Below, one piece after another: positions 4,002-14,407 of a DNA stretch of 64,000 nucleotides. Positions within the stretch are counted from its first letter, which is position 1. Each line of letters begins with the position of its first letter. Below the pieces are notes generated by a model. It saw only the letters and a program-made list of their open reading frames with translations. It was not told the origin of the DNA and searched no databases. The DNA is from Nitrospirota bacterium. Lineage in GTDB: Bacteria; Nitrospirota; Thermodesulfovibrionia; Thermodesulfovibrionales; UBA9159. Location of the stretch: contig JAJYIF010000002.1 of NCBI GenBank assembly GCA_021790195.1, positions 1 through 64,000 on the forward strand, in the 5' to 3' direction. The position numbers and the translations under genes were made by a program.

Positions 4002-4505
4002 CTAAGTGCGCTGCTTCAAATCCAGGGACAGGACCCTCATATCGCCATCGTCCTTCTGAACGTCCTCAAACCCGAGACTTCTCCAGAAGGACAGAGAGAC
4101 AAGGTTGTCCGGTTTTACCCTCGCAATTATCTTATTCACGGGCAGGCGCTGTCTTAGTGCCCCGACAAACAGGGCGAAGGCGCCCTTGCCGTAGCCGCGT
4201 CCTCTGTTCGGAGGCGGGAATATAACGAGAGTAACTTCGCCCGCTTCGCCGGACCTTAGATTGTAAAGGCCGAGGAAGCCGATGCGGGTCGATGCAATCT
4301 CTATGCAGTAGAGATATTCGTATGTCTTCTTCATCCACCACCATATCTGGAACCATGATCGTGCGACGGGCCTGCGGGCCCCGCTCGTATCGAGGATGTC
4401 TTTGTCCCTCATTATCTCGCCGAGGAATGGTCCGTCTAAAAGTCCCGCACGTCTCAGCCTCAGCCCGTCCGGGGCAGGATAGTCCGTGATCTTGCGCGGC
4501 ATCAT
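4002..4505 (-). CDS. GNAT-family N-acetyltransferase
   Basis: 167 residues with the acetyl-CoA pyrophosphate-binding motif A as NRGRGYGKGA, preceded by the beta-strand EVTLVIFPP and followed by a motif-B-like region ending SFWRSLGFEDV. This matches small-molecule or RimJ/RimL-like acetyltransferases that transfer an acetyl group from acetyl-CoA to an amine. The acceptor is unknown. It is monocistronic. About 110 bp downstream of its stop hold short open frames that I could not assign. Confidence 0.8.
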   Translation of the reverse strand: MMPRKITDYPAPDGLRLRRAGLLDGPFLGEIMRDKDILDTSGARRPVARSWFQIWWWMKKTYEYLYCIEIASTRIGFLGLYNLRSGEAGEVTLVIFPPPNRGRGYGKGAFALFVGALRQRLPVNKIIARVKPDNLVSLSFWRSLGFEDVQKDDGDMRVLSLDLKQRT

Positions 4506-11484: not shown

Positions 11485-12672
11485 TCAGGGCAAAGCGCTC
11501 AGACCGTTCTTGATCTTCCAGAGGTAATACCGTTCAAAGGCGATTTTCAGCCACTTGTATCTGGCCCCGACTTTCAGGTCCGACTCCTGTCTGGGAGGCA
11601 GCACCGGGGCCGCCTTCATGATCGCTGCAGTATTGCCCATGTCCATGAGGCAGACCACATCTATAGGAACTCCTTCCGGAGGCGTTGATCCGGTAATGTC
11701 CGCCGCGATGCTCGTCGAAGCAGCCTTCGCCATCTTGACGGTCATATAGCCGGTTTTCGGAACACCTGTCGGAACCGGTGTCTGCTCAGGAGGAGCTATT
11801 GCGACGGCAACGCCGACAGCAAAGATGTTTCTATACTTCTTGTGTCTGTAGTTGCCGTCAACCGGTATGAACCCCCTCGGGTTTCCGAGATGCGCTACAG
11901 CTGGTACGCCTTTCATGGCCGGGGCAAACATCGAAAGTTTAAAGGGTATCTTTGTCCCCTCCTTCAGTTTCAACTCGCCAGACGTGATCTCCTCGACTAC
12001 GGCGTTAGTGATGATCCTGATATCGCGTTCCGCAAATTCGTTTTCCATCATCAACTTCGAATTTCTTAATCCGCCTATGCCGAAATGACCTATGAAGGGT
12101 TCAGACGTGACAAAGACAATTGGGACCTTGTGGCGTATTCTTCGCTTGCGCAATTCGGTGTCGATCTCAAACGCGTATTCATACGGCGGTCCGAAACAAC
12201 TAACACCCTGAACAGACCCGGTCACTATAGGTCCGGGATTCTCAAGGAACTTGTTCCATGTCCTGCTCGTTCTTTCCGCCTGGTCAAGGGTGAAGATACA
12301 TTCCGTATGCCCCTTTTCAGGTCCAAGACCGGGGACTTCTTCAAAGGCCAGATAGGGGCCTGTCGCTATTACGAGATAATCATAAGGCACTTCTCCTGAA
12401 GCCGAAACGACCCTGGATGCGTCAGCGTCTACCCCTTTAGCGGTTTCATGGATGAAGGTTATTCCTTTTCTTTCCAAAATAGGCTTGAGAGGCAGGGTTA
12501 TATCTGAGGCCTTTCTGCTCCCCATGGAAACCCAGGGGAGAGAGGGGACAAAAACGAATTTGTCGTCGTCGCAAAGGACCGTTACCTCGGCCCTCTTCCC
12601 AAGCATACGCCTTAATTCGAACGCTGCTGTGAGTCCTCCGAATGAGCCTCCTAAAACAACTATTCTCGCCAT
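11485..12672 (-). CDS. sqr: Sulfide:quinone oxidoreductase-type flavoprotein
   Basis: 395 residues. N-terminal FAD-binding GGSFGGLTAAFEL, a second dinucleotide fold ending in ATGPYLAF, and the three cysteines expected of SQR: Cys125 (HTECIF), Cys159 (GVSCFGPPYE) and Cys341 (VVCLMDMG). SQR oxidises sulfide to polysulfide or persulfide and passes electrons to membrane quinone; the amphipathic C-terminus (WLKIAFERYYLWKIKNG) would bind the membrane. GGGAGGG precedes the ATG. It is the last gene of the ArsR / selenoprotein / DsrEFH operon, which makes it the likely source of sulfane sulfur for those proteins. Confidence 0.85.
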   Translation of the reverse strand: MARIVVLGGSFGGLTAAFELRRMLGKRAEVTVLCDDDKFVFVPSLPWVSMGSRKASDITLPLKPILERKGITFIHETAKGVDADASRVVSASGEVPYDYLVIATGPYLAFEEVPGLGPEKGHTECIFTLDQAERTSRTWNKFLENPGPIVTGSVQGVSCFGPPYEYAFEIDTELRKRRIRHKVPIVFVTSEPFIGHFGIGGLRNSKLMMENEFAERDIRIITNAVVEEITSGELKLKEGTKIPFKLSMFAPAMKGVPAVAHLGNPRGFIPVDGNYRHKKYRNIFAVGVAVAIAPPEQTPVPTGVPKTGYMTVKMAKAASTSIAADITGSTPPEGVPIDVVCLMDMGNTAAIMKAAPVLPPRQESDLKVGARYKWLKIAFERYYLWKIKNGLSALP

Positions 12673-12713: not shown

Positions 12714-13001
12714 TTAGAACATGCCAAGCACTTTGTCTGACCGGGCCATCAGGTCTATCAGCCCGCCGTAGTCTATGTTCTTTACTCTTTCCTCCAGGTC
12801 GCCGGCCGCAAGGCCCCTCAATTTCTTGTCGTCGGCCAGTACAAATGCAGAGCCGCTGAAATTCTCGAGGTTGTCCTTCTGGGCGAAATAGGCCCCGTTT
12901 TGAAGAAGAACAATGTCGGCGCCCATTCTCTCTGCCAGCGTTACACCCCTTTTCCCCTCTGTAGTATTCGGAGCGCTTCTAATAATAACTAACATTTTCA
13001 C
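12714..13001 (-). CDS. DsrH/TusB-family sulfur-relay protein, cysteine-free
   Basis: 95 residues with the DsrH/TusB fold (MKMLVIIRSAP ... ADIVLLQNGAYFA) and a typical length. In DsrEFH and TusBCD complexes the H/B subunit is structural or holds one Cys. Here no cysteine is present at all, so this copy cannot carry a persulfide and should be structural. It lies 21 bases after the DsrF-like gene and 41 bases before SQR. Confidence 0.75.
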   Translation of the reverse strand: MKMLVIIRSAPNTTEGKRGVTLAERMGADIVLLQNGAYFAQKDNLENFSGSAFVLADDKKLRGLAAGDLEERVKNIDYGGLIDLMARSDKVLGMF

Positions 13002-13022: not shown

Positions 13023-13376
13023 CTAAAAGATCATCGTCGAGTCGGCTTTCTTGAGGAGCTGAGCTATTTCGTCTATGCTCGCAACCCTGACCCCATCAAC
13101 AATGTCCCCTTCACTGATATTGTTTTCCATAAGGGAAGACTGCTCAACCAGGACCTCCACATCCATATCTATACAATCCTTTAAGGCCGCTCCGAGGTTC
13201 GTAAAGCCGGTCCCGGTTTCGTCCTGCCCCTTTTTTGCAAGCAATGCCCCTCCGTCCGTCATTATCAGGGAGACTTTGAACTCGCCGGAGACACCGCCCA
13301 GGGCATGTCTTACTGCCTCTGCCGCATTGATGTCTCCATAGGGCGGCTTACGCAGAATCATCGCAATATGTTCCAT
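13023..13376 (-). CDS. DsrF/TusC-like DsrE-family protein lacking the active-site cysteine
   Basis: 117 residues of DsrE-family fold (MEHIAMILRKPPYGD ... GVSGEFKVSLIMTDGGALLA). At the site where DsrE-type proteins have a CxxC or Cys, this protein reads VEVLVEQSSLMENN, with no cysteine; its only Cys is in ALKDCIDMDV. It is therefore probably a structural partner of the DsrE-like subunit. Its ribosome-binding site AGGAGG overlaps the TAG stop of the DsrE gene, showing tight translational coupling. Confidence 0.8.
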   Translation of the reverse strand: MEHIAMILRKPPYGDINAAEAVRHALGGVSGEFKVSLIMTDGGALLAKKGQDETGTGFTNLGAALKDCIDMDVEVLVEQSSLMENNISEGDIVDGVRVASIDEIAQLLKKADSTMIF

Positions 13377-13387
13377 TTTATTTCCTC

Positions 13388-13744
13388 CTATGCCCCGATA
13401 TTGAGCCAGATGTCGCTTTCACCCATGGTCCTGAACAGACCCTTCAGCGACCCAACTTCGACACCGTTGAGATAATCATCCTTCGCCGCACGGCGAAAGT
13501 TCAGACAGCCGCCTCAGAGATAGACCTTTAATCCCTTGGTGATGAGTTGCGAGAACTCCTCTTCCGCATTCAGTATCCCCTTTGCCTTCTGCCCTTTCAG
13601 AAAACAATACACCCCGTCCGCCGATGCTATAAGATTCACCGTGTGTCCCTTGTTCAGCGCGGAGTCTGCAATGCGGACGGCGGTTTCCGTGTTCTCATAC
13701 GAATAGGGTGAAGTTGATACAAAGAGGGTAAATGTCTTGCCCAT
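13388..13744 (-). CDS. Selenoprotein DsrE: in-frame UGA at codon 77, UxxC motif
   Basis: Read through one UGA (13514-13516), the frame gives 118 residues, the normal DsrE length, and ends in a TAG that touches the ribosome-binding site of the next gene. Read to the UGA it gives only 76 residues and stops exactly at the active site. Around it the protein reads KGLKVYL-U-GGCLNFRR, where DsrE relatives have CxxC, so selenocysteine would replace the first Cys of a redox or persulfide site (U77, C80). A hairpin matching a bacterial SECIS begins 15 bases after the UGA. AAAGGAGGA precedes the ATG. DsrE-like selenoproteins are a known class. Function here: sulfur or selenium transfer, inferred. Confidence 0.85.
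13480..13516 (-). promoter_or_regulatory. Bacterial SECIS-like element of the DsrE gene
   Basis: After the UGA come 14 bases, then the stem CUUUCGCC, the loop GUGC and the complementary strand GGCGAAGG: 8 pairs (one G-U) closing a 4-base loop that starts with G. The loop lies 22 bases from the UGA, inside the 16-37 base window usual for SelB-binding bacterial SECIS hairpins. Confidence 0.75.
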
Positions 13745-13761: not shown

Positions 13762-14028
13762 CTATGGTAAATGCTCTGACTTACACATCTCCTGCAGAAT
13801 TATTGATTCAAGACCCTGCAGTGTTATATCGCCGCCCTTGCAGACGACCACGTCGTCTATTGCTACAGCGGGAAGTATGTTAATGAATCGCCGCTCTATA
13901 AAGGACATTTCTGACTTCTTGATTGTCTCTGTTTGGAATGTGTATTTATGTGAAAGGTCCATTACCATGGACTGAATGTTGATTCATGTCGCCCCCGGAG
14001 GATCATTGAGATATGATTTTATTATCAT
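13762..14028 (-). CDS. Thioredoxin-like selenoprotein (in-frame UGA at codon 15), SaoT-like
   Basis: From the ATG at 14028 the frame runs 88 residues through one UGA (13984-13986). The protein starts MIIKSYLNDPPGAT-U-INIQ and continues to a thioredoxin-like second half (NILPAVAIDDVVVCKGGDIT, with the cis-Pro-type LPA). Selenocysteine sits after the first beta-strand, where thioredoxin-like proteins have their active Cys. Initiation at the internal ATG (13968) would lose that strand and has no ribosome-binding site. A 6-bp hairpin with loop GGUA follows at SECIS distance. It recalls the thioredoxin-like (seleno)protein family named SaoT in databases; that match is from memory. It starts 4 bases after the arsR stop. 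Confidence 0.75.
13957..13986 (-). promoter_or_regulatory. Bacterial SECIS-like element of the thioredoxin-like gene
   Basis: Eleven bases after the UGA comes a perfect 6-bp stem GUCCAU / AUGGAC closing the loop GGUA. The loop is 17 bases from the UGA and starts with GG, as expected for a SelB-recognised hairpin. The stem is shorter than in the DsrE gene. Confidence 0.6.
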
Positions 14029-14032
14029 AGGT

Positions 14033-14407
14033 TCATTTTCCCACCGCGGCTTTTGCGTTCCTTACGCCGGGATATTTCCCTTTCTTTGTAATAGGACAGC
14101 ACGCAGGCGCGGGTAGCTTTTCGTGATAATCCTTTTTCAGAACGGTGAGAAGCTCAGGAATCATGGGATCAACCAGGAAGTAACATTTCAGCCTGCCGTC
14201 GACGTAATAATCAATGATTCCATATCGTCTCAGGAGTTGCAGGTGCTGCGATACATTCGGCTGGCTTATTTCCAGGAACCCCTCCAAATCACTCACGCAC
14301 TTCACCCCTTGCGCAAGTTCCCCGAGCAGCTTTATGCGGACAGGGTGGGCAATGACCTTCAGAAGTTCTATCTTCTCTGTGTCTGTCCTTTCAGAGAGAG
14401 AAACCAT
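14033..14407 (-). CDS. ArsR-family transcriptional regulator, first gene of the selenoprotein/sulfur operon
   Basis: 124 residues with the winged helix of ArsR/SmtB repressors (LKVIAHPVRIKLLGEL ... LEISQPNVSQHLQLLRR). Cysteines at 37, 75, 103 and 104 could sense a metal(loid), a persulfide or another thiol-reactive signal; Cys37 and Cys75 lie in the DNA-binding half, and CC at 103-104 in the tail. AAGGAGG precedes the ATG. It lies first in the operon under a strong promoter with a palindrome over the start site, so it most likely represses its own operon. Confidence 0.9.
   Translation of the reverse strand: MVSLSERTDTEKIELLKVIAHPVRIKLLGELAQGVKCVSDLEGFLEISQPNVSQHLQLLRRYGIIDYYVDGRLKCYFLVDPMIPELLTVLKKDYHEKLPAPACCPITKKGKYPGVRNAKAAVGK

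Follow-up and report, generated by a model that had tools for sequence, protein, structure and literature searches.

A predicted DsrE-like selenoprotein in an apparent DsrEFH-sulfide:quinone reductase operon of Nitrospirota

DsrE-like proteins with selenocysteine (Sec, U) in a UxxC motif were reported from the Sargasso Sea in 2005 and from D. vulgaris in 2006 and are included in a review of 2026 (PMC1088965, PMC1794560, PMC13188914). The same review also includes the TsoC family (PMC13188914), which has already been named by NCBI. In A. vinosum, Cys78 of DsrE binds sulfur and DsrEFH donates sulfur to DsrC (PMC3397948). The kind of protein considered here is already known, and its Nitrospirota branch and its gene neighbourhood with sulfide:quinone reductase (SQR) are apparently undescribed; a literature search, with most subscription journals outside it, found no DsrE-like selenoproteins in Nitrospirota or together with SQR.

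The window, a stretch of 64,000 nucleotides, belongs to a Nitrospirota genome assembly of 3.3 Mb which is 96% complete. A dsrE frame on its minus strand starts at ATG (13744-13742), meets TGA at codon 77 (13516-13514), stays open for 41 further codons and ends with TAG (13390-13388) within 'ataggaggaaataaaatg', where the TAG lies across the Shine-Dalgarno sequence of the gene that follows. The standard gene call gave 76 aa, and reading the TGA as U turned 13744-13388 into 118 residues with a single U, residue 77, in the motif UGGC (codons 77-80). The original prediction, which named no strand, had described the same 41 additional DsrE-like codons, the TAG over the ribosome-binding site of the next gene and the 76-residue product of a plain call, and the reading of the frame and its standard translation agree with it. 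The cutting of DsrE(Sec) to 76 residues by plain gene calls is a recurrent annotation error.

The full product matched the Pfam DsrE domain (PF02635) over residues 4-112 (2e-17, 63.9 bits, gathering 22.7), and a DsrE domain together with Sec in UxxC, here UGGC, is what defines the known DsrE-like UxxC family. The score against the TusD/DsrE equivalog TIGR03012 was 22.1 bits, below the curated cut-off of 89.25, and among NCBIfam 20.0 matches to E 1 no model naming the protein as a selenoprotein was found. The predicted structural model had a pLDDT of 81 and its best PDB matches were all DsrE-like, namely YchN (Z 14.8), DsrEFH (2hy5, Z 14.2) and TusBCD (2d1p, Z 13.7).

If the UGA were an ordinary stop, the gene would be a pseudogene or its product a truncated protein of 76 residues. 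A mechanical gene call does end there, and in the window 30 of the 101 TGA-ended ORFs stay open for at least 38 further codons. The single-sequence evidence for Sec is modest; the comparative evidence is strong. TGA was found exactly at codon 77 in 49 of 49 distinct Nitrospirota orthologs and never UAA or UAG, and mean pN/pS over all ortholog pairs was 0.155/0.799 before the UGA and 0.130/0.685 after it. The same constraint over 41 further codons in 49 genomes, the absence of any other stop codon and Cys at the site in four orthologs argue against an ordinary stop, which is extremely improbable.

Across the phylum 72 of 295 genomes gave a match, 68 of these 72 with TGA and four without; the named relatives in the comparison were almost all Nitrospirota. 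The four TGA-less orthologs (L113-L116), from one family of the phylum, carry CGTC in place of UGGC. Their genomes hold a full SelB in one case, none in another and only fragments in two, and with SelB status varying in this way the Sec/Cys difference is not simply a matter of machinery loss. The tree of Sec and Cys orthologs had an unsure root and unsure long branches and left Sec versus Cys ancestry unsettled. In addition, a divergent second Sec clade (L042-L046) was observed with about 45% identity, UTGC, adjoining DsrF and DsrH and a different hairpin sequence. One ortholog (G057/L087) showed a frame break just past the UGA (4445-4450), with 8 bases fewer than expected, which is either real decay or an assembly error. 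All that the plasmid search returned were remote DsrE proteins of haloarchaea (about 33%).

The position of Sec77 could be compared with that of Cys in other DsrE proteins. In E. coli YchN, the closest relative with a solved structure (1e-4), CKTC aligned exactly to UxxC, and the second DsrE of the same genome has CEAC at the Sec77 site. The sequence alignment with E. coli TusD ended before the active site, thus the equivalence of Sec77 to Cys78 is drawn from YchN, from the paralog and from the fold.

A hairpin, CUUUCGCC-GUGC-GGCGAAGG (13499-13480), follows the UGA, with G as the first loop position. The published bacterial SECIS model has a loop of 3-9 nt, a stem of 4-16 bp, an MFE of -7.5 or lower, G in the first two loop positions and a distance of 16-37 nt after the UGA (PMC13188914). 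With 8 bp, a 4-nt loop and 22 nt the hairpin lies within this model, and the fold reached -15.1 kcal/mol, a figure which takes in a small second hairpin. Judged from the window by itself, this hairpin stands out only moderately, the fold z being -1.65 and an equal or longer SECIS-type stem following 2.4% of all TGAs; comparison with relatives places it well outside what chance would give. Codons under the hairpin were near-frozen in the orthologs, with CGC for R84 in 49 of 49, CGT for R85 in 46 of 49 and GCG for A87 in 46 of 49; mean codon entropy at the other conserved 4- and 6-fold sites was 1.8-1.9 bits.

Within the close orthologs (A2) alone, the stem hardly varied, few pairs changed on both sides and RNAalifold gave a weak 5-pair consensus. 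In the divergent relatives L118-L121 the residues differ (FRRAAK to FRCITE and similar) and compensatory changes preserve the stem. Once these relatives were included, both the covariation score and the percentage of paired cells exceeded all 500 shuffles (0/500) and all slid controls; the shuffle control ignores relatedness and L118-L121 are related to each other, so this figure calls for caution. The hairpin was absent from the Cys orthologs, where only 47% of cells pair, no better than in slid versions. Rfam gave no match at the DsrE locus at the gathering threshold.

The genes for Sec synthesis and insertion were present in the genome, with SelA (614 bits), SelB (377 bits) and SelD (349 bits) all over cut-off and a tRNA-Sec with anticodon UCA (tca). 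A second tRNA-Sec match over cut-off (C36) was rejected, being a tRNA-Cys according to ARAGORN. The selD gene (L048, G000:C40:63237-64154) contains one in-frame TGA, and SelD itself is probably also a selenoprotein. Among 61 relatives SelB was over cut-off in all 36 UGA-carrying genomes and the two SelB-less genomes did not carry the gene; a UGA kept where Sec machinery is lacking, the observation named against the original prediction, was thus not seen among them, a comparison of low power with SelB in 59 of the 61.

Recoding of another kind, through suppression, near-cognate readthrough or a code with UGA as Trp or Cys, would also open the frame, and residue 77 was identified from sequence alone. 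The complete Sec machinery with its tRNA-Sec(UCA), the Cys and not Trp of the relatives at this site, and the SECIS-type hairpin at the right distance, kept with UGA and absent with Cys, argue against such recoding and make it exceedingly unlikely. Truncation or a pseudogene, a sequencing error and an alternative UGA code were rejected on the basis of the 49 orthologs, the Cys orthologs and the Sec machinery. From UGA conservation, Cys counterparts, the constrained and covarying hairpin and the Sec machinery, the DsrE protein very probably contains selenocysteine at UGA codon 77. The original prediction of a DsrE with Sec in UxxC is in line with all these data: its placing of the UGA at the first Cys of an expected CxxC is borne out by the aligned CKTC of YchN and the four CGTC orthologs, and its 8-bp SECIS-like hairpin at the right distance fits the bacterial SECIS model and covaries.

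Table 1. Coordinates of the predicted features in the window and of the second DsrEFH set elsewhere in the genome
Feature	Position	Strand	Evidence
Predicted DsrE-like selenoprotein CDS, 118 aa, Sec77 in UGGC	13388..13744	minus	frame, Pfam and ortholog comparison
In-frame UGA, codon 77, predicted to be read as selenocysteine	13514..13516	minus	TGA in 49/49 distinct orthologs; Cys codon TGC/TGT in L113-L116
SECIS-like hairpin, 8 bp, GUGC loop starting 22 nt after UGA	13480..13499	minus	fold, synonymous constraint, covariation, absence in Cys orthologs
DsrF/TusC-like subunit	13023..13376	minus	Pfam DsrE 1.5e-15; TIGR03010 3.8e-9, below its cut-off; same order in relatives
DsrH/TusB-like subunit	12714..13001	minus	Pfam DsrH 2.6e-9; TIGR03011 42.0 bits vs cut-off 49.2
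Sulfide:quinone reductase (SQR)	11485..12672	minus	345.7 bits to 3t2y; Cys125, 159, 341 conserved in relatives compared
TsoC selenoprotein (NDPPGATU), thioredoxin-like, UGA 13986-13984	13762..14028	minus	NF045708 57.1 bits vs cut-off 45; UGA and Cys relatives
SECIS-like hairpin of TsoC gene, GUCCAU-GGUA-AUGGAC, loop 17 nt after UGA	13957..13972	minus	
ArsR-family regulator	14033..14407	minus	HTH_5 3.6e-11; NF033788 over cut-off; Cys37, 75, 103, 104 invariant in relatives compared
Second DsrE/F/H set, Cys (CEAC)	L124:15355-16438 (G000:C54)		near dsrAB, dsrC, dsrK

The genes of the window stand in the order ArsR - TsoC - DsrE(Sec) - DsrF - DsrH - SQR (Table 1), the adjacent dsrE, dsrF and dsrH occupying 13744-12714. 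The order DsrE-F-H-SQR was kept in nearly all of the 37 named genomes with a contig long enough; most of these also had the ArsR gene upstream and few had TsoC. Downstream of SQR, several relatives encode a large protein of some 780 residues. DsrE(Sec), DsrF, DsrH and SQR appear to form one operon, and their gene order suggests co-transcription, a complex and regulation. The DsrEFH/SQR operon and the second selenoprotein upstream of it are additional to the original prediction. Across DsrE, DsrF and DsrH, no sulfur or selenium residue other than Sec77 and Cys80 is invariant, and the window copy of DsrH lacks Cys altogether. The structure matched by SQR (3t2y) was deposited as sulfide-quinone reductase. 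SQR was rejected as a selenoprotein, its frame having no stop and the seleno-subtype model giving 109 against a cut-off of 525. The four invariant Cys of the ArsR protein may suit sulfur, persulfide, redox or metal sensing.

For TsoC, the NF045708 score was taken with the UGA read through, and the plain gene call started from an internal ATG and gave 68 aa. A similar hairpin was kept in several of its UGA relatives, and the three relatives with Cys (L092-L094) showed a far weaker fold at the hairpin site.

The genome encodes two DsrEFH sets in parallel, one with Sec and the other with Cys. Contig C54 carries dsrA, dsrB, dsrC and dsrK along with the Cys-type DsrEFH, and the DsrC encoded there ends in C-x10-C.

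Considered as a whole, the DsrE selenoprotein probably serves as the DsrE component in a DsrEFH/TusBCD-like complex which works with SQR in a sulfane-sulfur relay, a role that rests on homology and gene order. Sec77 is somewhat favoured as the sulfane-sulfur carrier, because Cys78 of A. vinosum DsrE binds sulfur and the model has the same fold. UGA codon 77 is very probably decoded as Sec by SelB and tRNA-Sec(UCA), with the hairpin 22 nt downstream serving as SECIS. In such a relay, SQR would oxidise sulfide to sulfane sulfur, which would be accepted by DsrE(Sec); Sec77, in place of the active-site Cys of DsrE, would hold it as a selenosulfide, and the resolving Cys80 would help to release the sulfur to an acceptor such as DsrC.

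The main competing explanation to the sulfur relay gives the UxxC pair a redox role, in which the selenoprotein would be a disulfide, persulfide or peroxide reductase with Sec77 and Cys80 cycling via a selenenylsulfide. UxxC/CxxC motifs are classical in redox proteins, Cys80 never varies, and the adjoining thioredoxin-like TsoC selenoprotein could be a partner. Against this, the neighbours DsrF, DsrH and SQR are kept, as in the sulfur-relay DsrEFH/TusBCD, and the fold is that of sulfurtransferases; a redox enzyme is rather unlikely. The operon might also encode a TusBCD variant for tRNA 2-thiolation or selenation instead of sulfide oxidation, as TusBCD is a close structural relative and the DsrF and DsrH copies match the TusC and TusB models, below cut-off. 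The operon includes SQR, and in the loci read no tRNA-modification gene was recognised beside DsrE(Sec), which makes a tRNA role quite improbable.

Extending the sulfur relay to the phylum is tentative: many Nitrospirota could possibly possess a selenium-dependent relay in which sulfur from SQR would be carried as selenosulfide by DsrE(Sec)FH, with a Cys-based ArsR sensor regulating it and TsoC sometimes assisting, beside a Cys DsrEFH for the dsrAB pathway. The residue that Sec would replace here is the expected sulfur carrier of a relay that has been studied in detail, thus the operon could be a test case for what selenium gains in sulfane-sulfur transfer. Natural Sec/Cys pairs are available, both as Sec and Cys DsrEFH within one genome and as UGA and Cys orthologs within one phylum.

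Among known systems, E. coli YchN (1jx7) is the best solved relative of the DsrE protein by sequence (1e-4) and by structure (Z 14.8), and it differs in having Cys, not Sec. YchN is not known to have DsrF or DsrH partners. With the Tso (three-selenoprotein operon) systems the locus shares TsoC upstream of DsrE(Sec), as identified by the NCBIfam model, and an ArsR-type regulator nearby; however, neither TsoA nor TsoB was seen in the DsrE(Sec) operon, and the score of the ArsR protein against the TsoR model was 34 bits, a long way short of the cut-off of 115. The known DsrE-like selenoproteins (PF02635) resemble the present protein in the DsrE fold family, the one Sec, the UxxC motif and the bacterial SECIS. 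The descriptions consulted place them in marine metagenomes and a deltaproteobacterium and mention no operon, whereas the present clade belongs to Nitrospirota and has a DsrEFH-SQR operon. A. vinosum DsrEFH and E. coli TusBCD likewise consist of three neighbouring DsrE/F/H-type genes of the same fold (2hy5, 2d1p), in which the E/D subunit is expected to bear the catalytic residue. Compared with them, the set of the window has Sec instead of Cys78 and a second Cys in UxxC; A. vinosum DsrH has an essential Cys20 (PMC3397948), whereas the DsrH here is Cys-free. A further difference is that this set is linked to SQR, with a separate Cys DsrEFH located near dsrAB in the same genome.
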